A stretch of DNA of 42,481 nucleotides from Sulfurimonadaceae bacterium (GTDB taxonomy: Bacteria; Campylobacterota; Campylobacteria; Campylobacterales; Sulfurimonadaceae). Positions 5,816 to 38,020 of the stretch are shown here, in pieces (within the stretch, counting starts at the first letter, position 1; each line of letters begins with the position of its first letter). Below the pieces are notes generated by a model that did not search any database, had not been told where the DNA came from, and saw nothing but the letters and a program-made list of their open reading frames with translations. A program made the position numbers and the translations under genes. The stretch is from the NCBI GenBank assembly GCA_028683835.1, contig JAQUHB010000022.1:1-42481 (forward strand). Reading direction: 5' to 3'.

Positions 5816-5944
5816 TACTATCAGTTTCCTTCAATATACTTATTTTTTTAGGCAATAAATATTCAATATTATTTATATAAGACTCAATCTTAATAAAATT
5901 ATTTCATCTGAATGATATAAAACTACCACATCCACTACACTCAT
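5808..5944 (-). pseudogene. 5' remnant of a GT2 (rhamnosyltransferase-like) gene, frameshifted
   Basis: Reading from ATG at 5944 gives MSVVDVVVLYHSDEIILL and then a stop at LSLI. Shifting frame by one missing base after the ILL codons restores IESYINNIEYLLPKKISIL, ending at a stop at 5808-5810. Joined, this parallels the start of the intact GT2 at 4943 (VLVLYHPDNNILLNIKSYIDSVDKL). The nucleotide sequences also line up here with a single-base gap. Nothing after about codon 40 survives, because the methyltransferase gene begins. It looks like a leftover from duplication or cassette exchange that placed the methyltransferase between a broken and an intact GT2. Confidence 0.7.
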
Positions 5945-5948
5945 GATT

Positions 5949-6887
5949 TCATCCAATTATATCATTTATGATATTTTTAATAAAAAAAGGATTTTTATTA
6001 AAATATATATGGCTCGAATTTTTACATCCAATTAAAAAAGTTTTAAAATGTATCAAGGAGTTTAAATAGTTTTCAAAATAAATTATAGCTTCATCAATTT
6101 TAGTGATTTTTTCATTATCAAAATTTAGATACATACTTTTTAATGCATATAAATTCTTCACTTGTGTTTCATAAATTGTTTGTCTACGTATTGTATTTCC
6201 TTTAAATCTTAATATTTTATTAATAATTAAAGCTTGGAATTTGCCTTCTATATATGCACTAGTATTTTGATTTATATGTTGTCTATATTTTATTAATGGC
6301 TTATTAATATATACAATTTTATTGTCTTTTGCTGCATTAATAGATAGATACCAATCATGATAAGTCAATCCTTCAGGGAAAGGTAATATTCTTTCTAATA
6401 ATTTTTTTTTGAACATAATAGTACATCCTGTTGCAACATTTGAAAATAAAAAATCTTCAAAAACTTTATGAGATTTTAATTCGTTTTTCCAAGTTTTTGA
6501 AATTGTTTGACCATTTTCATCTATGAGTTCGCAATCAGAATGAATAAGTAAATTATCTTCGATGTTTGCAAGAAGAAACTCTATTTTATTTTCTAACCAA
6601 ATATCATCTTGATCAGCCAATGCAATATAATCTCCATTGCATAAATTAATTGCCCTTTCAAAATTTTTCACATATCCCAAGTTTTGTTCATTCATGTAAT
6701 ATTTCAAACCGTACTTAATCTCATACATTTTAAGAATTTCAATAGTTTTATCAGAAGAACAATCATCACAAACTATCACTTCAATATTTTTATATGATTG
6801 TGCATAAATAGAGTCAAGCTGTTCTTTTAAGAACTCATCACCATTGTAAGTTGCCATCGCAATAGAAACAAGTGCTTGTGTATTCAT
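5949..6887 (-). CDS. Glycosyltransferase family 2
   Basis: A 312-residue GT-A family 2 glycosyltransferase. It opens VSIAMATYNGDEFLKEQL, with QSYKNIEVIVCDDCSSD (the DD donor-site motif) and ALADQDDIW (DxD metal site). LTYHDWYLSINAAK and KPLIKYRQHINQNTS follow the pattern of WfgD/alpha-L-Rha-type transferases in O-antigen clusters. The C-terminal about 90 residues are Asn/Ile/Lys-rich with no clear domain. It ends 4 bases before the GT2 remnant start and begins directly after the methyltransferase stop at 6888. Donor and acceptor are unknown. Confidence 0.85.
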   Translation of the reverse strand: MNTQALVSIAMATYNGDEFLKEQLDSIYAQSYKNIEVIVCDDCSSDKTIEILKMYEIKYGLKYYMNEQNLGYVKNFERAINLCNGDYIALADQDDIWLENKIEFLLANIEDNLLIHSDCELIDENGQTISKTWKNELKSHKVFEDFLFSNVATGCTIMFKKKLLERILPFPEGLTYHDWYLSINAAKDNKIVYINKPLIKYRQHINQNTSAYIEGKFQALIINKILRFKGNTIRRQTIYETQVKNLYALKSMYLNFDNEKITKIDEAIIYFENYLNSLIHFKTFLIGCKNSSHIYFNKNPFFIKNIINDIIG

Positions 6888-7634
6888 CTATTTCTCTACC
6901 AAAATAAGATTCTCATTAACGTTCACTCCATATTTTTTAGAATCTATTTTTACTAAAATTTCTTGATGATGTTTCACTCTTAATTGAAAACCTACATCCT
7001 CTAATTTATTGAAAAGATCATGTCCAAAAACTCTCACATGATCTTCCTGTCCATAAAATTGCATTCTCAAAACATCAGAATTTATATTTTTATCTTGAAA
7101 AGAGTTAGATAAAAGATTCGAATAAGGCGTTTGCAGAATTGCCATTCCTCCCTTTCGTAAAACTCGATAAATTTCCATTAAAGCTGTCTCTATATCTTCA
7201 ATATGCTCTAGTACATGGTTACAAATTAAAAAATCAAAAGAATTATTAGCATAGGGTATAGCAGTAATATCAATCTTTTCTACATCATCGTCATTAGAAT
7301 ACAAATCTGCTTTAACATATTGTTCAGGTCTTAATGCTGCAATTTTATCTGACAAATGAACTTCTGGAGCGAAATGTAATACTCTTCCTTTTAATACTTT
7401 CCATAAGTCAAGTGTATCAATATACATAAGGAGGTGTCGTTCCCTATCATGACTCCAACAATACGGACAAGAAAAATTTTTTATATCACTACCAATCATT
7501 TGTAACGCTTGAGTAAAATATGATATTTTTTCACTTTCTCTATAAGGTATAAAATAGGTGAAAGTATTTCCACACACATAACAACTTTTACTATTACCTA
7601 GTCTGTTTAATACATTTTTAATACGCTTTATCAT
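6888..7634 (-). CDS. Class I methyltransferase with N-terminal zinc-ribbon-like cysteines
   Basis: A 248-residue SAM-dependent methyltransferase. The N-terminus has two CxxC pairs (Cys18/21 and Cys56/59), likely a metal-binding knuckle. LHFAPEVHLSDKI is motif I, and FDFLICNHVLEHIEDIETAL followed by LRKGGMAILQTPY are the Methyltransf_11 motifs. The combination of paired cysteines plus HFAPE is typical of methyltransferases embedded in glycan loci; the substrate is probably a sugar hydroxyl, but the sequence does not show which. The stop abuts the start of the GT2 gene at 6887 with no spacer. Confidence 0.8.
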   Translation of the reverse strand: MIKRIKNVLNRLGNSKSCYVCGNTFTYFIPYRESEKISYFTQALQMIGSDIKNFSCPYCWSHDRERHLLMYIDTLDLWKVLKGRVLHFAPEVHLSDKIAALRPEQYVKADLYSNDDDVEKIDITAIPYANNSFDFLICNHVLEHIEDIETALMEIYRVLRKGGMAILQTPYSNLLSNSFQDKNINSDVLRMQFYGQEDHVRVFGHDLFNKLEDVGFQLRVKHHQEILVKIDSKKYGVNVNENLILVEK

Positions 7635-7655
7635 AAATTATCCTTCATTTCAATT

Positions 7656-8579
7656 TCACCCAATTACACTTTTAAATATTTTTTTCACTCCAGCATATTT
7701 TCTAATTAAATATTTTTTTAAAGAGTAGGTAAATATAAAAAAAGTTGAATCTGTTGTATTCAATATCATTTCTAAAATTCTTTTTTTATAATATTTCATC
7801 ATCTCTTTATCATCAATCCGTTTGTAATAAGCAAACATCATACTAAATGAGATTAAACTATTGTCATATACTTCACTCATAGATAGCATTGAGTGGACTC
7901 CAGTTCTGTGAATGCGATACATTGATGGGCTGATGTTATCCAAATATTTACCCTGACCATAATCAGATAATAATGCCCAAAGAAAGAGATCACCATATTT
8001 TGCTTGAGAAAACTCCAAAGGAAAAGACTTAATAATATTTCTAAAACATACAGTCAATGTATTTATAGGTGTTGCTTCCCTTAGCTCTTTACTACTTAAA
8101 TCTTTTTTTACTCCTCCAATATACTTTTTTATTAATCCTTGATCATTAAATCCAATGACAGAAGAGTAAGTAATTACATATTCTTTATTTTTATCTAAAA
8201 AATCTTTTTGTAATTGTAACTTTTTAGAATCTGTCCAATAATCATCCCCTTCACATATAGCTATATATTCACCTTTACAAGCCAATAGTGTTCGTATAAA
8301 ATTCGGATTCATGCCAACATTATTTTCACTTGTAATAAGCTTAATTATATTTGGATATTTTTCCATATACTTTTTAATTATGTTGATAGTAGTATCTAAA
8401 CTGTAATCTTCCCCTATAACTATTTCGAATGGAAAATCTGTCTCTTGCATCAAAAAACTATCTATTGCTTCACTTATATACTTTTCATGATTATATGTAA
8501 TTGTACATATGCTTACCACTGGTAATGAATTATTGGTTTGCCAATGTTTCATAATCTCTTCTTCTGTTTTATGGAACAT
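7656..8579 (-). CDS. Glycosyltransferase family 2
   Basis: A 307-residue family 2 glycosyltransferase. VSICTITYNHEKYISEAIDSFL is the N-terminal beta-alpha unit, EIVIGEDYSLD the donor-site acidic motif, and AICEGDDYW the DxD-type metal site. The start used (ATG 8577-8579) directly follows the flippase stop codon and has AAGGA five bases upstream, inside the flippase's last codons. An internal ATG at 8552 also has a good purine-rich site (AAGAAGAG), so the first nine residues are uncertain. It belongs to the flippase-led run of glycan genes. Confidence 0.85.
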   Translation of the reverse strand: MFHKTEEEIMKHWQTNNSLPVVSICTITYNHEKYISEAIDSFLMQETDFPFEIVIGEDYSLDTTINIIKKYMEKYPNIIKLITSENNVGMNPNFIRTLLACKGEYIAICEGDDYWTDSKKLQLQKDFLDKNKEYVITYSSVIGFNDQGLIKKYIGGVKKDLSSKELREATPINTLTVCFRNIIKSFPLEFSQAKYGDLFLWALLSDYGQGKYLDNISPSMYRIHRTGVHSMLSMSEVYDNSLISFSMMFAYYKRIDDKEMMKYYKKRILEMILNTTDSTFFIFTYSLKKYLIRKYAGVKKIFKSVIG

Positions 8580-10124
8580 TTACTTCCTTTTTTTAAATAT
8601 CTTATTTAAAATTATTTTTCTAGTATATGGATATACTAAAATATTTAAGCTTAATAATATAATTCCTATTATTAATAAAATTCCAAAAATTTCCATTCTA
8701 TTAAAAATATCAAATTGAATATTTAAAATTTTTAAAATAATGAGATATATACTCGTAACTATAAATGCTGGAAATACATCTTGAAAAATCCAATTTGTAT
8801 GAATTCCTGGTGCAAATTTATTATGTACATATGATGGCCATACTAAGAAACTTATAAGCTGTATTCCAAACCAAGTTATACCTGCACCAATTGCACCATA
8901 ATTTTTTACTGCAAAATAAACTATAGGTAATGCAATAAAAGGAAAATATGTGTTAAATCTAAGATGATACTTTAAGTTACCATGTGCAAATTGTAAATAA
9001 TACTGAAAAGCTAAAATAGTCAAGATGCCATTGCCCATTGCATACCAAAATAATACTGGAGCTGCCCATATCGAAGCTTCTATATTTCCGCTCCAAGAAA
9101 ACAATAGCTCATAAGAATAAAAAGAAACTATACCCACTACTGAAAACATTCCTATAGAAACAAATTGTGTACCTCTTCTATATAAATTCAGCATTTCTAA
9201 TTCTCTACCATTAGATAAAAGTGAAGTCATTCGTGGCAATATAGCTTGACTTATAGGATTTGAAATCTGCAATATGGCCGTTGAAATAGTAACTACTAAA
9301 GCAAAATATCCATACTGATGTAAAGATATATAATGTGATAGCAACAACTTATCCAATTGTGTATAGATAATCCAAATACCTGACATATATGCCAAACTTA
9401 ACGCAAATGGAGCTATTTTTTTCATATTTATAATAGATGGAATTAAAAAACTTGTCTTTGGAAGATTCCGATAAACCTTGATATTTAAAATATAAACCTC
9501 GAACAGAGCAATTATAAACTGATACATAAAGAAATAAAAAATATCATTACTAATAAATAAGATTAATATTAATCCACCTACAAATCTAAGGGTAGCAATA
9601 ATTATTGTATATATATTCAACCATACTTGTTGTTCTAACCCAATAATGAGGCCATTATATAAACTCACATACCATTTAAACGCAATCATAAAACCCATCA
9701 ACTTTATACTTTTCTCAACTAAGTCATAACTCAATACTTTAATTTGTAACCATTGATTAACAATCCAGTCAGTTGAAAAAAATACTCCTATTACTATAAA
9801 AATAGCTAGTACAAGAATCATGCTTTCTATACTTCTTAATATCTCTTTTATTTCAAAAAGACCACCAATCTTATCTTTTAACTTTGCGGTTTCTCTAGTT
9901 AGAGCTTGAGAAAATCCCATATCTAGAAGCATCATAATTGATGTAAGCATAGTAAAGAAACCAACCAATCCATAAGCTTCTGCACCTAAATGTTTTATAT
10001 AAAAAGGAAGCATAAATATACCGATAAACATCGTATAAAACTGCCCTATATAGTTGGCTATAGTATTTTTTTTAAGATTAATTTGTTTATTCAATACTTT
10101 GTACCATACCAAAACAAATCTCAA
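8580..10124 (-). CDS. wzx: Wzx-type oligosaccharide flippase (MVF/MATE superfamily)
   Basis: A 514-residue protein with about 12-14 hydrophobic helices and the usual Polysacc_synt N-terminus: NTIANYIGQFYTMFIGIFML, then YIKHLGAEAYGLVGFF and LLDMGFSQALTRE. Such proteins move undecaprenyl-linked oligosaccharides from the cytoplasmic to the periplasmic face of the inner membrane. The start is unclear: the longest frame opens with TTG at 10122-10124, the next candidate is TTG at 10094, and there is no in-frame ATG until residue 32, within the first helix. No strong ribosome-binding site is visible at either TTG. It is the only flippase in the window; no Wzy polymerase or Wzz was found. Confidence 0.85.
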   Translation of the reverse strand: MRFVLVWYKVLNKQINLKKNTIANYIGQFYTMFIGIFMLPFYIKHLGAEAYGLVGFFTMLTSIMMLLDMGFSQALTRETAKLKDKIGGLFEIKEILRSIESMILVLAIFIVIGVFFSTDWIVNQWLQIKVLSYDLVEKSIKLMGFMIAFKWYVSLYNGLIIGLEQQVWLNIYTIIIATLRFVGGLILILFISNDIFYFFMYQFIIALFEVYILNIKVYRNLPKTSFLIPSIINMKKIAPFALSLAYMSGIWIIYTQLDKLLLSHYISLHQYGYFALVVTISTAILQISNPISQAILPRMTSLLSNGRELEMLNLYRRGTQFVSIGMFSVVGIVSFYSYELLFSWSGNIEASIWAAPVLFWYAMGNGILTILAFQYYLQFAHGNLKYHLRFNTYFPFIALPIVYFAVKNYGAIGAGITWFGIQLISFLVWPSYVHNKFAPGIHTNWIFQDVFPAFIVTSIYLIILKILNIQFDIFNRMEIFGILLIIGIILLSLNILVYPYTRKIILNKIFKKRK

Positions 10125-10209
10125 AGCTAGGAAAATAATAATCTATATGAGATATTAAATATTTATTCATCATCTATTTTATATAATAAATCGATTACAA
10201 ATTGTAAAA

Positions 10210-10764
10210 TCATCTAAACAAATTCCCAACTCTCTCATTTTCTGAAGTATTTAGAAATCTTTCGTAGTTTTTTAAAACGTCTTCTTTATTTCTAGTTCCA
10301 ATCTTTTTATTGCCTATATAAATACCCCATGGTTTCAGATCTTTTGTTACTACCGAGTTCGCGCCTACCGTCGATCCCTCTCCAATATTTACACCAGGAA
10401 GAACAACAGAATTAGCTCCAATAATACAATAATTTCCAATATAAATAGGTGCACTTTTAATATTTCTGTATATATTGTTTATAGTAGAATTACCAAAACC
10501 AAAATCTTTAAAATCGTCCGTTGCGGTCAATATTCTACATCCTTGAGAAATTGCAGAAAAATCACCTAATTCAAGTTTATTACCACCGGTTATTGATGCA
10601 AAATTTGCAATATGAACATAGTTTCCTATTTTAATTTTTTCTTTTGCATAAATCAGAACGAAGTCATCTATGATAATATTTTCACCAAACTCTATATTCT
10701 CTAAACCTATTATTTTTGTATATTCAAATGTTTTTACGTAAGGTATCTTGTACTTATCCATCAT
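10210..10764 (-). CDS. Hexapeptide-repeat sugar O/N-acyltransferase (left-handed beta-helix)
   Basis: A 184-residue protein with imperfect hexapeptide repeats (IEFGENIIIDDFVLI, IKIGNYVHIANFASI, IYIGNYCIIGANSVVLPGVNIGEGSTVGANSVVTKDL), which form a left-handed beta-helix as in the NodL/WbbJ/VioB acetyltransferases. It uses an acyl-CoA donor in the cytoplasm. It overlaps the sugar aminotransferase gene by 4 bases, so the simplest reading is that it acylates the 4-amino group made by that enzyme. That pairing is inferred. It lacks the N-terminal Rossmann-like domain of PglD-type enzymes. Confidence 0.8.
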   Translation of the reverse strand: MMDKYKIPYVKTFEYTKIIGLENIEFGENIIIDDFVLIYAKEKIKIGNYVHIANFASITGGNKLELGDFSAISQGCRILTATDDFKDFGFGNSTINNIYRNIKSAPIYIGNYCIIGANSVVLPGVNIGEGSTVGANSVVTKDLKPWGIYIGNKKIGTRNKEDVLKNYERFLNTSENERVGNLFR

Positions 10765-11834
10765 AGTGCCTTTTTTACAATCTCTATTATTTTATCCTGC
10801 ATATTTGGCTCTAACTCAGCATAAATAGGCAAACAAAGTATTCGTTTACTTATATCTCTTGAGATAGGCATTACTTGTTTTGGCTCTATATAACTTAAAG
10901 TATCAAGTGATGGATAAAAATATCTTCTTGGAAATATTTGCACATTATTTAAGGCTTTTTGTACTACTAAAAGTTGTTCTTCACTTTTGAAAACTATTGG
11001 GAAATAGCTATAGTTTTCAGTAGCATTTTCATTTTGCTCTTGAAACTTGACTAAACCTTTCAACTCTTGTCTATAAAATGCTAATACTACTTTTCTTTTT
11101 TGTTTTATCTCTTCTATATCATCAAGTACACATAAGCCCATAGCCGCTTCAAATTCATTCATCTTTGCATTTGTTCCAAGATGGGGTATTTCTTCTTGAT
11201 TTTTAATTCCAAAATTTATAAGATATCTTGCTTTTTCTACAAGCTTATCATCATTTATGATTAATGCACCGCCTTCGATACTATGAAAGAGTTTTGTAGC
11301 ATGAAAACTAAGAGTAGAAATATCTCCATAGTTCAATACGCTTTGATTTTTATACTTTACATCAAAAGCATGCGCTGCATCATAAATTACTTTTAAGTTG
11401 TACTTATTCGCAATTTGTTTTATCTCTTCAACTTCACAAGCATTGCCAAATACATGTACTGGAAGTATTGCAGATGTATTTGGGGTTATTGATTTTTCTA
11501 TATTTTTTGGATTTAGATTCAGCGTATTTTCATCTATATCAGCAAATATTGGAAGTAAATCATTAGTTACCAGTGAACTTGTAGTTGCTACAAAACTAAA
11601 AGGTGTAGTAATGACAAAACCCTCAAGATCAAGAGTTCTATACGCTATTTCAAGCGCTACTGTACCATTTGAAACTAGGACTATATTTTTAACTCCCAAA
11701 TATTCTGCAAGTCTTTTTTCAAGTCTTTGTACAAGTGGACCATTATTTGTTAGCCATCCATTTTCATAGATTTCATCTATATATTTTTTATATTTTTCTT
11801 TATTTGGTAAATAGGTTTTTGTTACATTTATCAT
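10761..11834 (-). CDS. DegT/DnrJ/EryC1/StrS-family PLP-dependent sugar aminotransferase (VioA-like)
   Basis: A 357-residue PLP enzyme of the DegT family, which transfers an amino group from glutamate to a nucleotide-linked keto-sugar. SNGTVALEIAYRTL holds the PLP phosphate site, YDAAHAFDVKYKNQ the Asp that contacts the pyridine ring, and FHATKLFHSIEGG the Schiff-base lysine. LGTNAKMNEFEAAMGL is a further family motif. The overall sequence style is closest to VioA-type enzymes acting on dTDP-4-keto-6-deoxyglucose (recollection, not searched). The next gene is an acyltransferase with a 4-base overlap, as expected for an N-acylamino sugar branch. No rmlA or rmlB is in the window to supply a dTDP-keto sugar. 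Confidence 0.85.
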   Translation of the reverse strand: MINVTKTYLPNKEKYKKYIDEIYENGWLTNNGPLVQRLEKRLAEYLGVKNIVLVSNGTVALEIAYRTLDLEGFVITTPFSFVATTSSLVTNDLLPIFADIDENTLNLNPKNIEKSITPNTSAILPVHVFGNACEVEEIKQIANKYNLKVIYDAAHAFDVKYKNQSVLNYGDISTLSFHATKLFHSIEGGALIINDDKLVEKARYLINFGIKNQEEIPHLGTNAKMNEFEAAMGLCVLDDIEEIKQKRKVVLAFYRQELKGLVKFQEQNENATENYSYFPIVFKSEEQLLVVQKALNNVQIFPRRYFYPSLDTLSYIEPKQVMPISRDISKRILCLPIYAELEPNMQDKIIEIVKKAL

Positions 11835-11838
11835 TTAA

Positions 11839-11931
11839 TTATTCCACACTTTTTAAAGAACAATTTATATATTCTTGTATTACTCTTTTCGAGTTTAACA
11901 TGATATTTCCATTCAAGTGATCATTTGTCAT
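11839..11931 (-). other. Short ORF between galE and the aminotransferase gene
   Basis: A 30-codon ATG-initiated ORF whose ATG overlaps the galE stop (ATGA). It ends 4 bases before the aminotransferase start and reads MTNDHLNGNIMLNSKR at its N-terminus. I do not recognise it. It may be a coupling leader, a gene scrap or chance; the overlap with galE is the only argument for it. Confidence 0.2.
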
Positions 11932-12926
11932 ACTCTACTTTCCCACGCATAAGCACTCTCACAAATAAGTGCTAAATCTTCATATTTTGGAGTCCAGTTC
12001 ATTTTGCTTTTTATCTTACGATTGTCTGAGATAAGAATTGCTGGATCACCATCTCGGCGAGGTGCAATTTCAACTTGAAATTCTGTAGATGTGACTTGCT
12101 TCATAGTTTCTACGACATCTCTTACACTAAAACCTCTGCCATAACCACAATTGAAAATATCACTTCTGTTATTTTCTAAATAACTTATAGCCTGAATATG
12201 TGCATCAGCTAAATCCAAAACATGTACATAATCTCTTATATTTGTTCCATCAATTGTCTTATAATCATCTCCAAAAATCATAATCTTATCTCTTTTACCG
12301 AGAGCTGTTTTAGCGACTAATGGTATTAGATGAGTTTCTGGATCATGACACTCACCAATCGTAAGATCATGACTTGTACCGGCAACATTGAAGTATCTAA
12401 AGATCACATATTTGAAATCTTTATGCGCTAAAGCCGTGTCTTGGATAATTCTTTCGCTCATTAATTTACTCATTCCATAAGGATTGATAGGAGATGTTTC
12501 ATAGTCTTCATCGATTCCTGTTTCATGGAGATTTGCAGGCTCACCATAAACTGCCGCCGTGCTTGAAAAGATAAATCTTTTTACATCGTTTGCCACTGCG
12601 CAGCGGATTAAGTTTGTTGTGTTGACAGTGTTATTCATATAATATTTTAAAGGATTTTCGACAGATTCAGAAACGACAATAGATGCAGCAAAGTGGATAA
12701 TAGTGTCTATATGATTTTCTTTTAAAACTTCACAAACGGTGTCAAACTCATTTAAATCCATCTGAAGAAATTTAAAATCTCTTATCTCTCTTAGGGTATC
12801 AAGAGTTTTTGCGCTTCCGGTACTAAGATTATCCAATATTGTAATGTTGTGTTGTGAAGTTTCTAGGAGTTGTTTCGTCACATGCGAGCCTATATATCCA
12901 GCTCCGCCAGTTATGAGTATATTCAT
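11928..12926 (-). CDS. galE: UDP-glucose 4-epimerase
   Basis: A 332-residue extended SDR with the NAD-binding GGAGYIGSH at residues 7-15, FSSTAAVYG, and the catalytic Tyr-Lys pair in YGMSK. FRYFNVAGTS, HLIPLVAKTALG and GTNIRDYVHVLDLADAH are signatures of GalE itself. It interconverts UDP-Glc and UDP-Gal (possibly the N-acetyl forms) in the cytoplasm to supply glycan building blocks. It sits between the GT2 gene that follows mqnE and the aminotransferase gene. A plausible sigma-70 promoter lies directly upstream. Its base composition is closer to housekeeping genes than to the very AT-rich genes at 2-10 kb. Confidence 0.95.
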   Translation of the reverse strand: MNILITGGAGYIGSHVTKQLLETSQHNITILDNLSTGSAKTLDTLREIRDFKFLQMDLNEFDTVCEVLKENHIDTIIHFAASIVVSESVENPLKYYMNNTVNTTNLIRCAVANDVKRFIFSSTAAVYGEPANLHETGIDEDYETSPINPYGMSKLMSERIIQDTALAHKDFKYVIFRYFNVAGTSHDLTIGECHDPETHLIPLVAKTALGKRDKIMIFGDDYKTIDGTNIRDYVHVLDLADAHIQAISYLENNRSDIFNCGYGRGFSVRDVVETMKQVTSTEFQVEIAPRRDGDPAILISDNRKIKSKMNWTPKYEDLALICESAYAWESRV

Positions 12927-12947
12927 CTGTCCAACTTTAATAATTAT

Positions 12948-12975
12948 TTTATATTTGAGACTATTATTTTATCAA
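12948..12975 (-). promoter_or_regulatory. Possible sigma-70 promoter for galE and the glycan genes
   Basis: On the minus strand TTGATA (12970-12975) and TATAAA (12948-12953) are separated by 16 bases, ending about 22 bases before the galE ATG. The 57-base gap is otherwise AT-rich. It could allow galE and downstream genes to be expressed separately from mqnE. Confidence 0.4.
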
Positions 12976-12983
12976 ATTTACTC

Positions 12984-13796
12984 TTAATACTCAGTGGCTA
13001 AACTCTTTAAGCGCTCTTCATAGAGTTTTGCATCTTTTATTTTTTGATATTTTCGTACACCTTGAAGTAAGATATTGTACTTTTGCACAAGTATCTCTTT
13101 CACCTCATCTTCTTTTATATGTGAAGATAAAAGTTTTTCTAGTGCTACCACTCGGAATCTGTCCATTCCCCAATATTTCATCGAAAGTTGATCCGTATGT
13201 CCACCATATTTTATAGTCATAGCTTGTTCTATGAGCCCTACTTTATGCTTCCATGTAAGCCTCAACCAAAGATCATAATCCTCACACACTTCCAAACTTT
13301 CATCAAAAACGCCAATATCTTCAAAGAGTTTTTTATGTATAAAAGCCGATGAAGGTGCGATGATGCAGTGAGACAGACACTGTGAAAAAATATCTCCGCT
13401 AAATTTTTGAAACTTTTTCGGAACTTTCATCTCTTTGCCATCACGAATCCACTGTTCATCTGTGTAAGAAAAAAACAGCTCTTTATCTGCTTTGTGAAGG
13501 CTTACATGTAAAGCAAGTTTCTCTTCATGCCACGCATCATCGGAATCTAAAAAAGCGATCCACTCATATGAACAAAGCGAGATACCGAGATTACGAGCAG
13601 AAGAAACTCCGGCATTGTTTTGATATCTGTAAATGATGGAAGGAAAATCTTGAATGATTTTGGAAGTTTCATCACTCGAGCCATCATCGATGACAATCAC
13701 TTCTGATGGCTGATAGGTTTGAGCAAAGACAGATGCCAATGCTCTTTTTAAAACTTCGTAGCGGTTGTATGTAGGAATAACTACGGAAATTTTCAC
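12984..13796 (-). CDS. Glycosyltransferase family 2
   Basis: A 270-residue GT-A family 2 glycosyltransferase. VSVVIPTYNR-type opening (ISVVIPTYNRYEVLKRAL), VIVIDDGSSDET as donor-site motif, and AFLDSDDAWH as the DxD metal site are all present. FDESLEVCEDYDLWLRL is the usual downstream motif. It overlaps mqnE by 4 bases (ATGA) and so is translationally coupled to a menaquinone gene, an odd pairing that probably reflects only position. A TTACATGTAA copy is in frame as Leu-His-Val near residue 96. Confidence 0.85.
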   Translation of the reverse strand: MKISVVIPTYNRYEVLKRALASVFAQTYQPSEVIVIDDGSSDETSKIIQDFPSIIYRYQNNAGVSSARNLGISLCSYEWIAFLDSDDAWHEEKLALHVSLHKADKELFFSYTDEQWIRDGKEMKVPKKFQKFSGDIFSQCLSHCIIAPSSAFIHKKLFEDIGVFDESLEVCEDYDLWLRLTWKHKVGLIEQAMTIKYGGHTDQLSMKYWGMDRFRVVALEKLLSSHIKEDEVKEILVQKYNILLQGVRKYQKIKDAKLYEERLKSLATEY

Positions 13797-24178: not shown

Positions 24179-25300
24179 TTGTCTGATTTAACTCTCATTA
24201 TACTTGCTGCTGGAGATTCTACACGTTTTAAAACCCCTATTAAGAAACAATGGTTAAGAATTGGTATGGAACCTCTATGGAATTTTGTAGCTTCTAGATT
24301 TGAAAAAACGGAAAAATTTTCTAAAATCATCATTACAGCTTCAAAAAACGATGTTTCATTTATGCACAGCTATACAGAACACCAGATCATCCAAGGCGGA
24401 GCAACGCGCCAAGAATCACTCAAAAATGCTCTCTTACATGTAAACACTCCTTATGTTCTCGTCACAGACGTTGCACGTGCTTGTATAAGCGATCTTCTGT
24501 TACAAAGAATTTTAGATACAAAAGATCAAGCCGACTGCATCGTTCCTGCCTTACATGTAAGCGATACTATTGTTTATGAGCATGACACTGTAGATCGAAA
24601 TAACATTCTCCGCATCCAAACACCCCAACTTTCACGCACAGATGCTTTGAAGCAGGCACTCCAAACCCAAGTAGAATATACAGATGAAAGCAGTGCTATC
24701 GTTGCCAACGGCGGAACAAGAGTATTTGTTGATGGAGAAGATGAAGCGTTTAAGCTGACATTTGCCGGAGATATCAAAGAACTTGGATGTCTAAGTGCAC
24801 CTTCTAATGTTACATTAGTCGGTAACGGTTTTGATGTGCATGCTTTTGATGATAAGGGAGAGATGTTTTTATGTGGAGTCAAGATTGAGAGTGATTTTGG
24901 ATTTTTGGCACACAGTGATGGCGATGTTGCTATTCATTCGCTTATCGATGCTCTTTTGGGTGCCGCTGGAATGGGTGATATAGGAATACTTTTCCCTGAT
25001 AATGATGATACTTACAAAGGCATTAATTCAACAATATTACTTAGAGATGTTGTCAAAAAACTTCTCAGTTTTGGATATGCGATAGTAAACGTCGATATCA
25101 CCATTATCGCAGAAACTCCGCGTATCGGAAAATATAAAGATGAGATGAGAAAAACTCTTTCGAAAATACTTGAAATTCCCACATTTTGTGTAAATGTAAA
25201 AGCGACAACTACAGAAAAACTTGGATTTATAGGACGCAAAGAGGGTGTCGGCGTTCTTAGCTGTGCATCATTAAACTACTACAATTGGACGAACAAGTGA
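24179..25300 (+). CDS. ispDF: Bifunctional IspD/IspF: MEP cytidylyltransferase / MECDP synthase
   Basis: A 373-residue fusion of two enzymes of the MEP isoprenoid pathway. The IspD part (residues 1 to about 210) has the CTP-binding LAAGDSTRFKTPIKKQW, GGATRQESL, VTDVARA and RIQTPQLSR. The IspF part (about 215-373) has GNGFDVHAF with the metal Asp-x-His, FLAHSDGDVAIHSLIDALLGAAGMGDIG, FPDNDDTYKG and ATTTEKLGFIGRKEGV. The fusion is common in Campylobacterota. Translation starts at TTG. Two TTACATGTAA copies lie in frame in the IspD half (24434, 24551), both encoding Leu-His-Val. The stop overlaps the next gene's GTG by GTGA. Confidence 0.96.
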   Translation: MSDLTLIILAAGDSTRFKTPIKKQWLRIGMEPLWNFVASRFEKTEKFSKIIITASKNDVSFMHSYTEHQIIQGGATRQESLKNALLHVNTPYVLVTDVARACISDLLLQRILDTKDQADCIVPALHVSDTIVYEHDTVDRNNILRIQTPQLSRTDALKQALQTQVEYTDESSAIVANGGTRVFVDGEDEAFKLTFAGDIKELGCLSAPSNVTLVGNGFDVHAFDDKGEMFLCGVKIESDFGFLAHSDGDVAIHSLIDALLGAAGMGDIGILFPDNDDTYKGINSTILLRDVVKKLLSFGYAIVNVDITIIAETPRIGKYKDEMRKTLSKILEIPTFCVNVKATTTEKLGFIGRKEGVGVLSCASLNYYNWTNK

Positions 25301-26184
25301 AAATACTAATTATTGAAAATGAGATCTATCTTGCGCAAAGCATTGCAACAAAACTAGGTGAACTCGGTCACATCTGTGACATGTGTACCTCTACAAAAGA
25401 TGCCCTAAAAAGTAATCTTTATGATGTCGTTTTACTCTCTACCAATATCAATGGTCAAGATTTTAATCCTATCATTGAAGCTTTCAGAAAATCTATTGTT
25501 ATATTGATGGTTTCGTATATCAGCAATGATACCGTTTCAAAACCACTCTCGCTAGGTGCTAAAGATTACATTCTCAAGCCGTTCATGATAGAAGAACTGA
25601 TCCGAAAAATCAACCATTTTCAAGATTATGAACGTCTAAAGCATCAATCAGAATCATATGAACGATACCTTAATCATAATTTTGCATCTATTACCGATGA
25701 GCCTAATATTGCAAATATGGAACTTCCGATTTTCATCTCGTGTAATTTTCAAAAGTATTCAGATTCATTTGCTTTTAAATATGCAAATAAACAAAATAAA
25801 CCACTCTATTTTGTCTCTCTTACAAATCCTAAAGCGATGAGTGAAATCTCGATGCTTCCAATTAGCACCATCATCTATGTTACAGATTTTCAAGTGATCA
25901 AGAAATCTGATAAAAAAGAGTTTTTGGATCTTATTAAAGGTAGAAATGTTATCGTCTCCAGTACAGATAAGATAGATGATGTAGACTATGAGATCATCGA
26001 TATCAAAAGTGATAACAATATTTTTGATCAAAGCGACATCCTACCTATCGAGGATTATGTCAAATATATTGTGTTAAACTACCAACATAAATTTCCAGAT
26101 ACAGAACTCTCCAAAAAACTTGGAATATCAAGAAAAAGCTTATGGGAAAAGAGAAAGAAATATGGCATCGCAAAGAAAAAATAG
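25297..26184 (+). CDS. Atypical orphan response regulator, HP1021/Cj1608-like
   Basis: A 295-residue protein with a degenerate receiver domain (1 to about 115) and a C-terminal Fis-type helix-turn-helix (ELSKKLGISRKSLWEKRKKYGI). In the receiver the phosphoacceptor position is Ser48 (YDVVLLSTN in place of Asp), though the KPF lysine (Lys94) is kept, so it cannot be phosphorylated normally. Helicobacter HP1021 and Campylobacter Cj1608, recalled as origin-binding and redox-linked regulators, share these traits and the ispDF neighbour. A CxxC (Cys27-Cys30) is present. I chose GTG at 25297, overlapping the ispDF stop, over the longer TTG frame at 25285, because MKILIIENE fits the receiver start. 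Confidence 0.85.
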   Translation: MKILIIENEIYLAQSIATKLGELGHICDMCTSTKDALKSNLYDVVLLSTNINGQDFNPIIEAFRKSIVILMVSYISNDTVSKPLSLGAKDYILKPFMIEELIRKINHFQDYERLKHQSESYERYLNHNFASITDEPNIANMELPIFISCNFQKYSDSFAFKYANKQNKPLYFVSLTNPKAMSEISMLPISTIIYVTDFQVIKKSDKKEFLDLIKGRNVIVSSTDKIDDVDYEIIDIKSDNNIFDQSDILPIEDYVKYIVLNYQHKFPDTELSKKLGISRKSLWEKRKKYGIAKKK

Positions 26185-27352
26185 AGTTCTTGTAATCGAC
26201 TCTGAAGCAGCTTCAGCTTTAGAGTTTTTAAAAGCTGGGCTGTTGTACCCTGTTGTCTCATTAATGAATAAAACTGAAGTTTCGGAAGTTCTCTCAACCT
26301 CAACAGTAAATAAAAAAATATTTCCCTTCCCTTTTATCCTTGCACCCTCTGGAAAACGTAATGAAGTGGTTCTTCAAGAGATGCATACCGATGAAAAACT
26401 TGATCTCATATGTAATGGAGAACTCTTTGCCACACTTATTGTGGAAGAGGTTTTTGAGATTGACCCCAAAGAGAGACTTCGCCACATCTACGGAACAGAT
26501 GATGAAACGCATCCGGGAGTAAGATCGACAAGTAAAAGACTTGGCAGATATGCTGTTTGTGGTGATTATACACTTACTAATGAGATTCCAGATCTTCATA
26601 AAGAGTATATCAAAGAAGCTATAGAGCTCTTAAATGCCAAAAATATCACGGCTATTATGATGGCAGTAAATCCTCTTCATCGTGCACATGAAAAACTGAT
26701 AAGACAGTCTCTTGAGTCCAGTGATCTTACTGTCATATTTTTACTCAAGCCTTATGAAACGGCTGACCTTCAGTACTCTCTTCGATATGAAGCTTTAAAA
26801 TACTTTATTGACAATTATTTGCCAAAAAATAGAGTGATTATTGTTCCTTTGGAAACTAACTATATCTTTGCGGGGATCAATGAGATCATCATTGATGCTA
26901 TTGTAGCAAAAAACTATGGCTGTACAAAGCTTACGATTGGACCAAATCATGCAGGTCTTGGGATGTACTATGATAGTAATACAAACAAATCGATTCTTGA
27001 TCGCGTAACTGATATCGGTATTAATATCTCTATTGCAAGTGAATATGTTTACTGCAATATTTGTAAAACACTTGTTAGTACAAATACTTGTCCTCATGGG
27101 CAACATCACCATATCTCTTATCATGCAGAGTCTATTTTGGAACTTTTAAAACTTGGTATCGTTCCTCCTGCGGTACTTGTAAGGAAAGAGATCTCGGCAC
27201 TTTTACTCTCAAAAATGTTTAAAAATAGATTTAAAAATCTTGAAAAAATGTACTATAACCTCCTTCCTATCGGTGGACTTCTAGAAAGCCATACAGAAGA
27301 AGAGTTTTACAAAGAACTTATGAATCTTTACCAAACAACATCACTTACTTAG
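26162..27352 (+). CDS. ATP-sulfurylase-like protein with altered active site
   Basis: A 396-residue homologue of the single-domain ATP sulfurylases (PUA-like N-terminal domain, then the ATP-sulfurylase core). The nucleotide-binding HxxH is present (His173, His176 in NPLHRAHE), but the sulfate-binding QTRN before it reads MAVN, so the arginine is lost. The usual GRDHAG reads GPNHAG (260-265). A zinc-ribbon-like CNICKTLVSTNTCPHG (Cys298, 301, 310, His312), known from thermophile and archaeal sulfurylases, is kept. The ATG at 26162 lies within the regulator gene (23-base overlap). It matches Cj1609 by position, annotated sat. Sulfate activation is doubtful; the real role is unknown. Confidence 0.75.
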   Translation: MASQRKNRVLVIDSEAASALEFLKAGLLYPVVSLMNKTEVSEVLSTSTVNKKIFPFPFILAPSGKRNEVVLQEMHTDEKLDLICNGELFATLIVEEVFEIDPKERLRHIYGTDDETHPGVRSTSKRLGRYAVCGDYTLTNEIPDLHKEYIKEAIELLNAKNITAIMMAVNPLHRAHEKLIRQSLESSDLTVIFLLKPYETADLQYSLRYEALKYFIDNYLPKNRVIIVPLETNYIFAGINEIIIDAIVAKNYGCTKLTIGPNHAGLGMYYDSNTNKSILDRVTDIGINISIASEYVYCNICKTLVSTNTCPHGQHHHISYHAESILELLKLGIVPPAVLVRKEISALLLSKMFKNRFKNLEKMYYNLLPIGGLLESHTEEEFYKELMNLYQTTSLT

Positions 27353-27359
27353 GATTTTA

Positions 27360-27869
27360 ATGAACCGTTTTTTTATAACACTATTTTACAGCGGACTCTC
27401 GCCAAAAGCGCCGGGAACAGTAGGCTCTTTTGTTGCGCTTCTTATCGGAATCCCTGCCCTTGCTTATCTTGGTAATCAGCTTATGTTTACACTCACACTT
27501 CTTATCTCTGCTATTGCAGTCAAAGAGATCAACCGTTATGAGGTGACAAGCGGTACACATGATGATAAAAGTATTGTTATTGATGAGCTTGCTGGGATGT
27601 GGTTTGCACTTTCTATTGCACCGGGGACGATGCTAAACTTCAGTGATATTTTTGATTTTTCTAATGGTTTTTTAATTCAATCACTTTTAGCATTTGTCCT
27701 TTTTCGATATTTTGATATTGTAAAACCTTCTATTATAGGAAGAATCGATAGAAATATGAGCGGAGGTCTTGGAGTGATGCTCGATGATATCGTTGCAGGA
27801 TTTGCCGCTGGAATATCTGCGGCATTTTTGTGGCAAATGGGTTTAAAACTTTTGCCCTATCTTTCATAA
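27360..27869 (+). CDS. pgpA: Phosphatidylglycerophosphatase A
   Basis: A 169-residue PgpA-family membrane protein that dephosphorylates phosphatidylglycerol-phosphate. GLSPKAPGTVGSFVAL near the N-terminus, DDKSIVIDELAGMWFAL with the metal acidic residues, and GGLGVMLDDIVAGFAAG near the C-terminus are family motifs, with about four hydrophobic helices. The start ATG follows AGGATTTTA and lies 7 bases after the upstream stop, so it is the last gene of the ispDF-led operon. C. jejuni has the same neighbour order. Confidence 0.92.
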   Translation: MNRFFITLFYSGLSPKAPGTVGSFVALLIGIPALAYLGNQLMFTLTLLISAIAVKEINRYEVTSGTHDDKSIVIDELAGMWFALSIAPGTMLNFSDIFDFSNGFLIQSLLAFVLFRYFDIVKPSIIGRIDRNMSGGLGVMLDDIVAGFAAGISAAFLWQMGLKLLPYLS

Positions 27870-27922: not shown

Positions 27923-29281
27923 TTAAATCCCTTCAGCAATCATCGCATCAGCAACACGTTTAAATCCTGCAATATTCGCGCCATCTATATAATTTCCTTC
28001 AACACCGTAATCTTTTGCTGTTAAAGCGATACGCTTACAAATCTGTTGCATTGTTTCTTTCAACTTTTCATCCACTTTTGCAAAAGACCATTTTTGCATA
28101 GAAGCATTTTGACTCATCTCAAACTCGCTCACAGAAACTCCACCAGCATTTGCAGCTTTTGCGGGAGCAAAGCATATTTTATGGGCTAAAAAGAGCTCCG
28201 TAGCTTCAGGAGTTGAGGGCATATTTGCTCCTTCACTTACTGAAACACAACCATTTTTTATAAGATTATCGGCATCCACTTTTGTCAACTCGTTTTGTGT
28301 TGCACATGGAAATGCCGCATAACAAGGAATCGTCCATACAGAATGTCCTCCATCTGGATAGTCTGCTAGTGGAATATAATTGGCACCGTTATGAACACTA
28401 AGATACTCTTTTAAAGAGCCTCGTCTTTCAAGTTTAATCTCTTTAATCAATTTTAAATTTATCCCTCGACTGTCATATAATGTCCCTGCCGAATCTGAAC
28501 AGCTTACAACTAGAGCTCCAAGTGACTGAAGTTTTTCTATCGTATATATCGCAACATTTCCCGCACCGCTGACTGTACATATTTTTCCATTAAGCGGTTC
28601 TTTTCTCTCATGTTCTAACATCGCTTCAGTAAAATATACAACACCGTATCCTGTCGCTTCAGGACGCATTAAAGAGCCGCCAAAAATAAAAGGCTTTCCT
28701 GTCAAAACACCTTCATATGTAGATGTTATTTTTTTATACTCACCAAAAAGATACCCTATTTCACGAGCGCCTACGCCGATGTCACCTGCAGGCACATCCA
28801 TACGAGGGCCTATATATTTGTGAAGTTCCGTCATAAAAGCAGAACAAAACTTCATGATTTCAAAATCACTTTTTCCCTTGGGATCAAAATCACTTCCACC
28901 CTTTGCCCCGCCTATAGGAAGACCGGTAAGAGAATTTTTAAGTATCTGCTCAAATCCCAAAAATTTAAGTATCCCTTCATTCACCGTTGGATGAAATCGA
29001 AGTCCACCTTTGTAGGGTCCAAGAGAGTTATTAAATTGAACTCTATAACCGGTATTGACTTGAATATTTTGCTGATCATCCATCCATGTAACTTTAAATT
29101 TTATAATTCTATCTGGAATAATCAGACGATCTAAAATAGCGTGTCTCTTATATCTTGGATCAGATTCTAACAATGGTGCGATAGAAGTTATTACCTCTTC
29201 CATCGCCTGAAAAAATATAGCATCATCCGCACAGTTTGACTCTTTGAATTTATTGAGTTCATTTTTTATAATATCTAACAT
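27923..29281 (-). CDS. gdhA: NADP-type glutamate dehydrogenase
   Basis: A 452-residue hexameric-type glutamate dehydrogenase, making glutamate from 2-oxoglutarate and ammonium. Motifs are GPYKGGLRFHPTVNEGILKFLGFEQ, the active-site lysine in LPIGGAKGGSDFDPKGKSD, DVPAGDIGVGAREIGY, and the dinucleotide-binding SGAGNVAIYTIEKL. The length matches E. coli GdhA (447). Residue context (SDSAGTLYD after the beta-strand) fits NADP rather than NAD, but this is not certain. A TATAAT lies upstream at 29310-29315, giving it its own promoter. Confidence 0.95.
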   Translation of the reverse strand: MLDIIKNELNKFKESNCADDAIFFQAMEEVITSIAPLLESDPRYKRHAILDRLIIPDRIIKFKVTWMDDQQNIQVNTGYRVQFNNSLGPYKGGLRFHPTVNEGILKFLGFEQILKNSLTGLPIGGAKGGSDFDPKGKSDFEIMKFCSAFMTELHKYIGPRMDVPAGDIGVGAREIGYLFGEYKKITSTYEGVLTGKPFIFGGSLMRPEATGYGVVYFTEAMLEHERKEPLNGKICTVSGAGNVAIYTIEKLQSLGALVVSCSDSAGTLYDSRGINLKLIKEIKLERRGSLKEYLSVHNGANYIPLADYPDGGHSVWTIPCYAAFPCATQNELTKVDADNLIKNGCVSVSEGANMPSTPEATELFLAHKICFAPAKAANAGGVSVSEFEMSQNASMQKWSFAKVDEKLKETMQQICKRIALTAKDYGVEGNYIDGANIAGFKRVADAMIAEGI

Positions 29282-35144: not shown

Positions 35145-37277
35145 CTAAATCTTCAACTTATATATTTTTGCGTATGGAGTCATTTCAACTGGTTCATAAA
35201 GATTTTTATCATAATGTTCAAGTACAAAAAGTTGTACGTATGTAGAATTAAAACTTGCTTCATCGAGAATTAAAAACTGCCCATAACTCGCCAAATAAAT
35301 CACAGTAATGCTTGCCATAGAGTTTAACTGTTTAGTGTCAATACTAAGCTTTCCATCTTTTTCATATCCTGTTTTTATAAATCTGTTGATCGGCATCTCT
35401 TTATCTCCAAACTTCACACTAGCAGTTGTCTTATTGATAGAGATTCCATTTTGAAGATAGATGAAATGTTCATCTTCATTGCTCGCTTGCGAAGCGAAGA
35501 AAATAGGGTCTGCGTATCTGCTGCCACTCATAAGATCAAGATTTGAAAAGAGTGTAACAGTCGGATAAATACTGAGCATTCTATATGGAAGATAAAGGTA
35601 CACATCTTTTGTCTTTTTAGGCAAAGTAATATTTGCCCCGCTCTCTAATGCACTTAAAAAATCGTTTGTGTCTTTAAAGCCGTTTGCTTTTGTCATCTCT
35701 TCTATATTTGAAGCAACTTTAGTCTGATTTGCTTCACTTTTTTTAGCATTCTCATTTGAAATCTTAAACGCACGTGCATCATACTCCACATCAAGTCTTG
35801 CCATTTTAGCTGCCGCGTCTTGGGGCTTTGTTAAAATGTAACTCACAGGAAAATTCACATCGCCATCATGTTTGCCTCCATCTACTAAAGTAAACATATC
35901 TGCATAATAACGAAGAGGATAGCCATAATCCCACCAGCTGATAATATAATCTTCTCTGCTTGTTTTTCCTTTTAATTTATCAAGCATAACGACTTCATCT
36001 TTGTTAAACACTGTGGGAACCTGATACTCTTTGACATGTAAGATATTTGGAAGTAAAACAAGAACTGCACCTATAAAAAGTGTCGCATACTGCATAAAAT
36101 AACTTGGCATCTTATTTGCAATTTCAGAGATAATAAAAGCAACACCAAAAGCTAATGGAACGATGGCATAGATAGTAAAACGAAGCCCGCCACTCTCTGC
36201 TAAAAAACCAAGACCAATCAAAGGAAGTGCTAAAAGCATTACACGATATCTGTATGAAAGCCAAATATACCCTGCGATTGAAAGGATAAATGTAATAGGA
36301 TTCCCACTGATCCTGCTTGCAAACTCGGAAAATGGAACTTGTCCCGCTTCACGAACAGTTTGCATAACGGTAAAGAAATGCAGTCCAAGTCCAGCAGTTG
36401 AAGCATCTATACTCTCTCTAAAAACATATGCTTTTAATCTTACTGTGATAGGCTCTAAACCACCGCTTGCAAGAAATGCAAGAACTCCCGCTCCTAAAAT
36501 ATAATAAACATATTTATCAAAATTTTTATTTTTAAAAATGAAATAAAGAGCCACAACAATAGGGAAACGAATAAGTTCACTCGTCATCATCATCGCAAAA
36601 AGCATAATTGCCAAGAGCTTAAAGTTAAAACTGTTTTTTTTATCAAAGAAAAGTGCATATACAAGAATAAGTCCAAAGAAAGCAGATTCTAGTGCAATAC
36701 TTTGCGGATACCACCACCTATATACCAAAATATCAAGTGCAGTTATGAGAAGGAATTTGTCCTGATTTGAATTAATTGCCCAGATAATAGACCAAAGTAA
36801 AACTGTCGGCAAAACGATAGTAAGCATATCCGTGTCGTAATATCCGACCATCGTACGGTTATAATAACTCCAAGCGATCGAAGCAAGAAGTGCTGCAATA
36901 AAACCCATATCCAGACGTTTAATACTATAAGAAATCAAGATAATAGGTATAACAAGCAGTGAACCTAAAAATGCAGGTATATAAAAAAATATACTCTCGA
37001 TTGAAAAAGGTAAAATTTTTGCTAGAACATAGGTAAGTTGTGACGTTGCACTATCTACAGGGGAAAGATCACCAGCTTGATGAAAACCAGCAAGTAAGTC
37101 TCTTGCACCCTCTGCGAAGAAATACCCATCATTGGTATTAATCATGAACTGTCCATGAAACATAAATGGTTCGTAACCATAAAACTGGTACACCCAGATC
37201 AACCGCACGGCAATACTAAACAGATACGCTATCGTAATAAGCAACAATACTTTTTTATTCTCTTGCGAAATTGTCAT
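35145..37277 (-). CDS. pglB: Oligosaccharyltransferase PglB (STT3 family)
   Basis: A 710-residue membrane protein with about 13 N-terminal TM helices and a soluble periplasmic C-domain. It transfers a lipid-linked glycan to asparagine in D/E-x-N-x-S/T sequons. Motifs are NTNDGYFFAEGARD (Asp50, matching catalytic Asp56 of C. lari PglB), GYYDTDML (148-150), a Glu310 in TVREAG matching Glu319, RISGN, and the signature WWDYG at 448-452. I chose ATG 37277 (AAGAGA upstream; 710 residues against 712-713 in Campylobacter) over ATG 37310, which overlaps the upstream stop. It is not inside a pgl cluster. Confidence 0.93.
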   Translation of the reverse strand: MTISQENKKVLLLITIAYLFSIAVRLIWVYQFYGYEPFMFHGQFMINTNDGYFFAEGARDLLAGFHQAGDLSPVDSATSQLTYVLAKILPFSIESIFFYIPAFLGSLLVIPIILISYSIKRLDMGFIAALLASIAWSYYNRTMVGYYDTDMLTIVLPTVLLWSIIWAINSNQDKFLLITALDILVYRWWYPQSIALESAFFGLILVYALFFDKKNSFNFKLLAIMLFAMMMTSELIRFPIVVALYFIFKNKNFDKYVYYILGAGVLAFLASGGLEPITVRLKAYVFRESIDASTAGLGLHFFTVMQTVREAGQVPFSEFASRISGNPITFILSIAGYIWLSYRYRVMLLALPLIGLGFLAESGGLRFTIYAIVPLAFGVAFIISEIANKMPSYFMQYATLFIGAVLVLLPNILHVKEYQVPTVFNKDEVVMLDKLKGKTSREDYIISWWDYGYPLRYYADMFTLVDGGKHDGDVNFPVSYILTKPQDAAAKMARLDVEYDARAFKISNENAKKSEANQTKVASNIEEMTKANGFKDTNDFLSALESGANITLPKKTKDVYLYLPYRMLSIYPTVTLFSNLDLMSGSRYADPIFFASQASNEDEHFIYLQNGISINKTTASVKFGDKEMPINRFIKTGYEKDGKLSIDTKQLNSMASITVIYLASYGQFLILDEASFNSTYVQLFVLEHYDKNLYEPVEMTPYAKIYKLKI

Positions 37278-37309
37278 TTTTTCTCTTTTTACTAATTTTT
37301 CGACGCGCA

Positions 37310-38020
37310 TTATAGCATCTTCATGTAATACTCAATGGAGTATCTCATATCTTCATCAAGTGATTCAACACTACTTAACATCCAGCTAAGATATGCAATA
37401 TCATTCATAACAATCTCTTCTATAAAACGACCTTTATATTTTCCAAAACTCAGCTTTTGTAACAAGGCTGGACGAGAACTTAGTTGTTGGAGTTTTTCAT
37501 CATTAGCTATATCATTTAAGTAGCTATGCAAAAGCCTTGCGTGTAAAGCATCGCTAAGCACTTCATGAGCACATAATTCTATCCCAAATTCATCTGCAAC
37601 TTTTTTCTCATTTTTATAAAGTTTAAGTTCATATCGAAGATACTGCAAAGAAAACTGCTCACACTCTTGTATTAAAGCTCTTGTACATTTAAGAGTGTCA
37701 ATGAATGCTCCATGAAAAATAAATCCCTCATATTTAAGCATTGCAATATCAAAAGCAATATTATGGCCAACAAAAGTCATATCAGGTCTATTATATTTTT
37801 CCAGTATCTCTTTGATTTGTGAATTTTCAAAACTCTTTTTCTCTTTGAGCATTTCATCTGTTATATGGTTTACAGCAGAAGCTTCCGAGCGCATCTTTTT
37901 TTGAGGTTTGATCAGTTCTTTATAAACTAAAACTTTTTCATCAAACACAATCAAACCAATAGCACATATTCTATCATTTTGCTCTAAGCCCGTGGTTTCT
38001 ATATCAATATAAATTAGCAT
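37310..38020 (-). CDS. DnaQ-like DEDD 3'-5' exonuclease with C-terminal DUF3820-like motif
   Basis: A 236-residue exonuclease of the DnaQ/RNase T superfamily. Exo I is YIDIETTGLE (Asp-x-Glu), exo II is FVGHNIAFDIAML, and exo III is AHEVLSDALHARLL (His-x4-Asp), so all catalytic acids are present. After residue 190 is a short extra module, LSFGKYKGRFIEEIVMNDIAYLSWML, which resembles DUF3820. Proteins of this build are often labelled DNA polymerase III epsilon-like; a replication or repair role is likely but unproven. Its start overlaps the small membrane protein's end by 7 bases. Confidence 0.85.
   Translation of the reverse strand: MLIYIDIETTGLEQNDRICAIGLIVFDEKVLVYKELIKPQKKMRSEASAVNHITDEMLKEKKSFENSQIKEILEKYNRPDMTFVGHNIAFDIAMLKYEGFIFHGAFIDTLKCTRALIQECEQFSLQYLRYELKLYKNEKKVADEFGIELCAHEVLSDALHARLLHSYLNDIANDEKLQQLSSRPALLQKLSFGKYKGRFIEEIVMNDIAYLSWMLSSVESLDEDMRYSIEYYMKML

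Follow-up and report, generated by a model that had tools for sequence, protein, structure and literature searches.

SatL, the product of the gene satL of a Sulfurimonadaceae bacterium, has the fold of ATP sulfurylase (Sat) and almost certainly no longer activates sulfate, its sequence and that of its relatives pointing to a sister of ATP sulfurylase that is old in the order Campylobacterales and has been inherited vertically there. For the whole of the explanation preferred here, in which sulfate activation has been lost and SatL would act as a nucleotide-binding partner in the circuit of the response regulator CemR, we put the probability at about 0.5.

Organization of the satL locus

The window, i.e., the whole stretch of 42,481 nt that was analysed, carries satL in the gene order ispDF-cemR-satL-pgpA, with the following features (window coordinates):

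24179..25300, + strand, ispDF, at the start of the conserved block (Pfam)
25285..26184, + strand, gene for an HP1021/Cj1608-type atypical response regulator of 299 aa (Pfam), which by homology we take to be cemR
26162..26184, + strand, coding overlap of cemR and satL, 23 nt
26162..27352, + strand, satL, encoding an ATP-sulfurylase-fold protein of 396 aa (PF01747, 185 bits, cut-off 24.3; PF14306, 64 bits, cut-off 27)
27360..27869, + strand, pgpA, at the end of the conserved block (Pfam)
27923-29281, gdhA, named by eye

The start of satL was taken to be the ATG at 26162 (396 aa); a mechanical choice of start gives the TTG at 26120 and 410 aa. An earlier note on this DNA had described the ORF at 26162-27352 as an ATP-sulfurylase homologue without signature residues, overlapping the gene of an HP1021-type regulator by 23 bases and followed by pgpA, with no further sulfate-assimilation gene nearby. 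Translation, Pfam matches and alignments confirmed the first point, the overlap proved exact with cemR ending at 26184, and pgpA starts at 27360. Of the ORFs in the window, 42 have 110 aa or more; a Pfam scan of 34 of these detected no sulfate-assimilation family, the eight outside the scan being gdhA and short or overlapping ORFs. Elsewhere, the window encodes a PglB-type oligosaccharyltransferase with STT3/PglB domains (35145-37310), and the region 225-13796 contains glycosyltransferase, methyltransferase and polysaccharide-synthesis genes.

SatL is composed of a PUA-like N-terminal domain, a nucleotidyltransferase core, a zinc knuckle and a C-terminal extension. PF01747, the domain of ATP sulfurylases, was matched far above its cut-off, and a profile-profile alignment of SatL with Sat gave a probability of 100 over columns 4-352. 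The scores lay below the NCBIfam cut-offs (143 versus 323 for TIGR00339 and 201 versus 387 for PRK04149); since a motif-complete canonical Sat (L003) also missed both (278 and 384.6), this shortfall is by itself a weak criterion. The nearest solved structures, by phmmer and by profile search of the PDB, were the Sat proteins of Thermus (1v47) and Methanothermococcus (8a8d). An AlphaFold2 model built from a five-sequence alignment had a pLDDT of 47.7, and the conclusions given here stand apart from it.

Loss of the substrate-site motifs

The following sites of SatL correspond to substrate-binding motifs of ATP sulfurylase:

26660..26692, + strand, codons 167-177, MAVNPLHRAHE in place of QTRNPxHRAHE, Gln and Arg absent, both His kept
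26939..26956, + strand, codons 260-265, GPNHAG in place of GRDHAG, Gly260 and His263 kept, Arg and Asp lost
27122..27139, + strand, codons 321-326, HAESIL in place of the PPi-binding SGTxxR, which is lost

The first two replacements had been pointed out in the earlier note and were found as described. A comparison of orthologues, which that note had proposed, was made with 59 SatL sequences (55 from 150 genomes and 4 from further genome contigs) and extended them to the family: Gln and Arg of QxRN each occurred in 0/59 and Asn in 28/59, while GRD occurred in 0/59, with Gly260 present in 57/59 and Arg261 in 5/59. The Pro of GPNHAG is local to the window species (2/59), Gln being the usual residue there (34/59). 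Two further motifs, beyond those listed earlier, are lost as well. In the GxxKxxD mobile loop, where the alignment is slightly uncertain, Gly was seen in 0/59 and Asp in 7/59, and a second alignment had K or R at the Gly column for 43 out of 50 SatL; in the SGTxxR motif of the PPi site, SGT was seen in 0/59 and Arg in 2/59. The second alignment, which includes nine canonical Sat, shows 26 canonical-specific columns that are lost in SatL. The possibility that the motifs are shifted instead of missing was rejected, because phmmer, profile-PDB, profile-profile and multi-sequence alignments agreed, all four assigning identical SatL residues to the Q, T and R positions of QTRN and to the R and D positions of GRD.

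The HxxH motif is retained in the window protein as H-R-A-H, and the pair is present in 50 of the 59 members. Position 173 is H in 50, N in 6 and T in 3, so that the family largely shows the (T/H)xxH pattern of the (T/H)xGH nucleotidyltransferase superfamily, and the second His (H176) is conserved in 58, the exception (L044) having Gln and lacking the first His too. Other residues of the old active site are still conserved, namely E177 (59/59) and the above Gly260, which occurs together with His263 in 50/59. ISSTxxR is the name of the second motif in the (T/H)xGH superfamily, and no motif of this type was found in SatL.

In the Sat of Allochromatium, sulfate is bound through its oxygens to Gln199, Arg201 and the amide of Ala299. 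Thr200, Arg201 and Asn202 contact the alpha-phosphate; Gly295, His298 and the backbone of Arg296 contact the ribose; and Asn202, His205, His208 and Arg365 of SGTxxR form the PPi side (PMC3779200). The same report describes the substrate site as virtually identical across ATP sulfurylases. All the substrate-contact motifs that PMC3779200 gives for ATP sulfurylase, except HxxH, are lost family-wide in SatL. These alignments show a site whose sulfate and pyrophosphate parts are lost and whose nucleoside part is partly retained; a nucleotide may still be bound by SatL.

Zinc knuckle and C-terminal extension

Two elements lie beside or beyond the former PPi site:

27053..27121, + strand, codons 298-320, zinc knuckle Cx2C...CPHGxHHHxxY, from the alignment with canonical Sat
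27218..27349, + strand, codons 353-396, C-terminal extension ending in FYKELMNLYQTTSLT, missing from canonical Sat

The zinc knuckle had been called intact, and it is: the ligands C298, C301, C310 and H312 of the window protein are the same four as in the Thermus and Methanothermococcus Sat, occur in 59/59 SatL and are followed by family-specific His residues and Tyr320. Together with these ligands, H315 and F382-Y383 of the tail (each 59/59) are the most conserved elements of the family. Positions conserved specifically in SatL include K/R178, K/R196, H315, Y320, R356 and, in the tail, F382, Y383 and Q391, and the new conserved His and Tyr flank the old PPi motif.

Compared with homo-oligomeric Sat (PF01747, TIGR00339; 8a8d, 1v47 and 1jhd), SatL shares the fold over 4-352, the PUA-like domain, the zinc knuckle and HxxH, but it lacks QxRN, GRD, GxxKxxD and SGTxxR, has about 45 additional aa in the tail and shows no genomic link to sulfate metabolism.

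Distribution, phylogeny and selection

The 150 genomes drawn all belong to Campylobacterales, and statements are therefore made for this order and not for the phylum. A PF01747 match was found in 121 of them, one in each except G120, which has two. SatL was assigned to 120 genomes: G120 encodes both a canonical Sat (L003) and SatL (L046), and G122, whose sole match is canonical (L002), was removed from the count. Apart from the 55 genomes whose sequences were read, the other 65 of the 120 were called by the PF01747 score alone or by this score plus a SatL profile (50/61 genomes). In a maximum-likelihood tree of 60 proteins, near-copies having been dropped, 51 SatL and 9 canonical Sat were split with 100/100 support; SatL is thus one clade, separate from canonical Sat.

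The dN/dS ratio was 0.024 between the satL sequences P0001 and L033, and ranged from 0.024 to 0.059 in the nine pairs with usable dS among P0001, L031, L032, L033 and L020, saturated pairs being excluded. SatL is under strong purifying selection. This value of 0.024 and the intact frames reject a decaying pseudogene, and the motif loss common to 59 orthologues rejects an oddity of one genome. A phage or mobile gene was also rejected, no relative having been found in 50,697 phage records or in viral contigs (two scans), and a single very weak PADLOC match (E 0.003) was disregarded as a sign of a defence gene. Matches were obtained in 29 plasmid records, and among the 15 listed the one from Sulfurovum alone was SatL-like (47.7% identity). 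The satL of Sulfurovum mangrovi (L077, 2256-3440) lies with ispDF, cemR and pgpA on a 395-kb record labelled as a plasmid and has in-frame stops near the C-terminus, which may be due to sequencing error or decay; the copy in G049 has an apparent frameshift near the N-terminus.

Sulfate metabolism in genomes with SatL

The earlier note had suggested looking for a second, canonical sat, and no second PF01747 gene was present in the genome to which the window belongs. Contig C49 of this genome encodes CysD, CysN, CysH, a sulfite/nitrite-reductase-family protein and a cysteine-synthase-type protein. Among the 120 genomes with SatL, 29 had strong CysD/CysH matches (below E 1e-25, a threshold chosen in this analysis), 52 had an APS-kinase-family match and 61 had neither; AprA scored above its cut-off in 0/150 genomes. 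Given the motif loss, the 61 of 120 genomes in which no use of APS was found and the presence of CysDN-CysH elsewhere, SatL is very probably not an ATP sulfurylase. The suggestion that a repurposed protein is likelier than sulfate activation is supported by the same three lines of evidence.

The canonical Sat of G120 and that of G122 each lie beside a gene for a pyruvate-kinase-barrel protein; G122 also has an APS kinase there, and G120 has a Na+/H+ exchanger. As seen in L074 (2862-6115) and L075 (4831-8118), the canonical Sat is directly followed by the pyruvate-kinase-barrel protein, one cassette also having an APS kinase and a TauE-type exporter and the other a Na+/H+ exchanger. This arrangement looks like a conserved sulfate-related polysaccharide cassette. 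The surroundings of both canonical Sats resemble a capsule cluster that has been published for one C. jejuni isolate (PMC2993937); G120, one of the two genomes, is a member of genus g13, in which SatL is present. The two true Sats accompany sulfation- or capsule-type genes; SatL does not.

Association of satL with cemR

CemR was found in 145 of the 150 genomes. Both proteins were present in 120 genomes, SatL alone in none, CemR alone in 25 and neither in 5 (Fisher p 2.4e-4, relatedness ignored). SatL thus never occurred without CemR (0/120 exceptions), but CemR did occur without SatL. At 57 of the 59 loci read, cemR lies upstream of satL. At L036 and L043, the two exceptions, satL adjoins queH and cemR is elsewhere; in these loci of family f7 (L036, 3371-6230; L043, 3195-5927), satL is divergent to queH and is followed by a small lipoprotein-like ORF, which in L036 had no Pfam match.

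In the 50 genomes in which both genes were located, cemR and satL overlap by 23 nt in 42 and by 14 nt in 3, are separated by a gap in 4, two of these gaps stemming from incomplete alignments, and are unlinked in 1. The 23-nt overlap, found across many families, is an unusually fixed coding overlap. These arrangements indicate that satL is usually translationally coupled to cemR.

Where satL is missing, the block has been altered in several ways. In L131, L132, L133, L138 and L139, ispDF-cemR-pgpA is closed up, and the same order is seen in L134 and L135, in which satL is located elsewhere. In L137, ispDF-cemR is preserved and pgpA lies close by on the opposite strand, and L136 has ispDF-cemR with pgpA absent within the stretch. 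L129 (G141) and L130 (G117) keep ispDF and have neither cemR nor satL, and L140 and L141 have ispDF without cemR.

Evolutionary rates of cemR and satL covaried with a partial r of 0.606 by distances (40 loci), the highest of six gene pairs. By branches (38 loci, two near-duplicates having been removed), cemR-satL was again the highest pair with 0.696, and ispDF-pgpA was close at 0.654; without the fast L060 tip, cemR-satL fell to 0.506, below ispDF-pgpA at 0.582. The covariation gives mild support to the link. No CemR residue was found that changes convincingly and consistently with the loss of SatL, and a change at CemR residue 299 falls within the coding overlap.

Possible functions of SatL

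The CemR family (HP1021, Cj1608 and Abu0127) has been reported as a regulator of energy conversion (PMC11334517) that is redox-controlled via a cysteine (PMC12632262). Of the roles considered, binding of an adenine-type nucleotide combined with action in the CemR circuit appears the most likely, with odds falling a little short of even. SatL keeps the fold, the zinc knuckle, usually HxxH and the ribose-contacting Gly and His, but its sulfate and PPi sites are lost, and it has K/R196, H315, Y320, R356 and the C-terminal tail instead. It could either report the nucleotide state to the CemR circuit or restrain CemR, possibly by contact with it; a CemR-coupled protein with a probable nucleotide site would suit as an input to CemR or as a brake. 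The most specific version, a retired sulfurylase that binds adenine nucleotide, passes the energy state to CemR and possibly restrains it, is proposed tentatively and must be considered somewhat unlikely. Within the reading of SatL as a nucleotide-responsive partner of CemR, a redox function of the Cys3His zinc site may perhaps have a place.

Several observations weigh against a role in the CemR circuit. CemR works without SatL, as judged from the 25 of 150 genomes with CemR alone and from the deletion studies reported in H. pylori and A. butzleri (PMC11334517), and satL has moved away from cemR in L036 and L043. The joint losses amount to roughly three to four events, and a single deletion can remove neighbouring genes at once; the covariation drops without the L060 tip and CemR residues do not track the loss of SatL. 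In addition, Cj1609, called a sulfate adenylyltransferase, was reported to be essential in only two of the four species compared, namely C. jejuni and C. coli (PMC10077673), but C. jejuni tolerates the deletion of cemR (PMC11334517). By the published gene numbers, Cj1609 adjoins Cj1607 (IspDF) and Cj1608 (CemR) as SatL does (PMC4435418), and it is probably the SatL orthologue, an assignment based on gene position and on the presence of SatL in genus g13. Essential Cj1609 together with dispensable cemR would mean that SatL has a role independent of CemR, that it restrains CemR or that the insertions were polar on pgpA. Restraint of CemR by SatL would explain why satL is reported to be essential without cemR being so.

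A working nucleotidyltransferase with a new acceptor (a small molecule, a protein or RNA) that acts independently of CemR, the operon being of historical origin only, is the main rival reading, and we hold it to be somewhat less likely than not. It is favoured by the conservation of the HxxH pair and of its second His, by the new His and Tyr around the old PPi motif, and by the replacement of the first His by Asn or Thr in 9/59. Thr at this place occurs in several (T/H)xGH enzymes. The citrate-lyase-ligase model TIGR00124 matched 17 of 44 SatL and an FAD-synthetase model matched 3 of 44, both matching 0 of 7 canonical Sat; this likeness to (T/H)xGH enzymes such as CitC spans the HxxH region in the window protein. 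Unlike these enzymes, SatL is without the second motif (SGTxxR/ISSTxxR; SGT in 0/59 and Arg in 2/59), L044 has Gln at the second His, and no acceptor or partner pathway was found; nor would such an enzyme predict the family-wide co-occurrence of SatL and CemR. The genomes with satL apart from cemR, two in number, and the reported essentiality of Cj1609 but not of cemR (PMC10077673, PMC11334517) speak for it. The CemR-circuit reading is slightly preferred to an independent enzyme; the CemR link is supported and so are the features of a retained nucleotide site.

It is improbable that SatL is a pseudoenzyme scaffold, binding no nucleotide and functioning through the zinc knuckle and the C-terminal tail. 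The highest conservation is indeed that of the zinc ligands, H315 and F382-Y383, and the lost former active-site columns have a mean entropy of 2.06 versus 1.72 in the core, but E177, H176 and G260 persist in the old site and the canonical active-site columns taken together show no more variation than the remaining columns (1.67 versus 1.72). That SatL is a genuine ATP sulfurylase, as its annotation says, but with unusual residues, is highly improbable: the fold, PF01747, the zinc site, one plasmid record naming a sulfate adenylyltransferase and the acceptance of so-named genes as such in PMC10092268, PMC4674564 and PMC10077673 are set against the family-wide loss of every side-chain sulfate contact and of the PPi Arg from a site virtually identical among ATP sulfurylases (PMC3779200), and against the 61 of 120 genomes in which use of APS was not found.

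Implications for Campylobacterales

In the accessible parts of the open-access literature on Cj1609, Cj1608, HP1021 and Campylobacter sulfate adenylyltransferase, no report of a SatL-type protein lacking the sulfurylase residues was found, nor was an ATP sulfurylase described as a pseudoenzyme in the open-access literature so covered; mutant or essentiality data on Cj1609/SatL were found there in PMC10077673 alone. A lone 'sat' has been described as conspicuous in the genome of an epsilonproteobacterium (PMC4674564), a proteomic study of Nautilia took a so-named gene to encode a dissimilatory sulfate adenylyltransferase (PMC10092268), and sulfate assimilation in Sulfurimonas was posited to involve a Sat-type enzyme (PMC4584964). 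If the sat genes of these three reports are satL, those readings of sulfate activation would be wrong. Many Campylobacter relatives carry SatL under the label of a sulfate-activating enzyme in databases. Since C. jejuni and C. coli reportedly cannot do without a homologue (PMC10077673), the true role of SatL stands out as a gap in what is understood of this group's biology. If the proposed role is true, SatL would be an input route to a pseudo-receiver regulator besides the reported cysteine switch.
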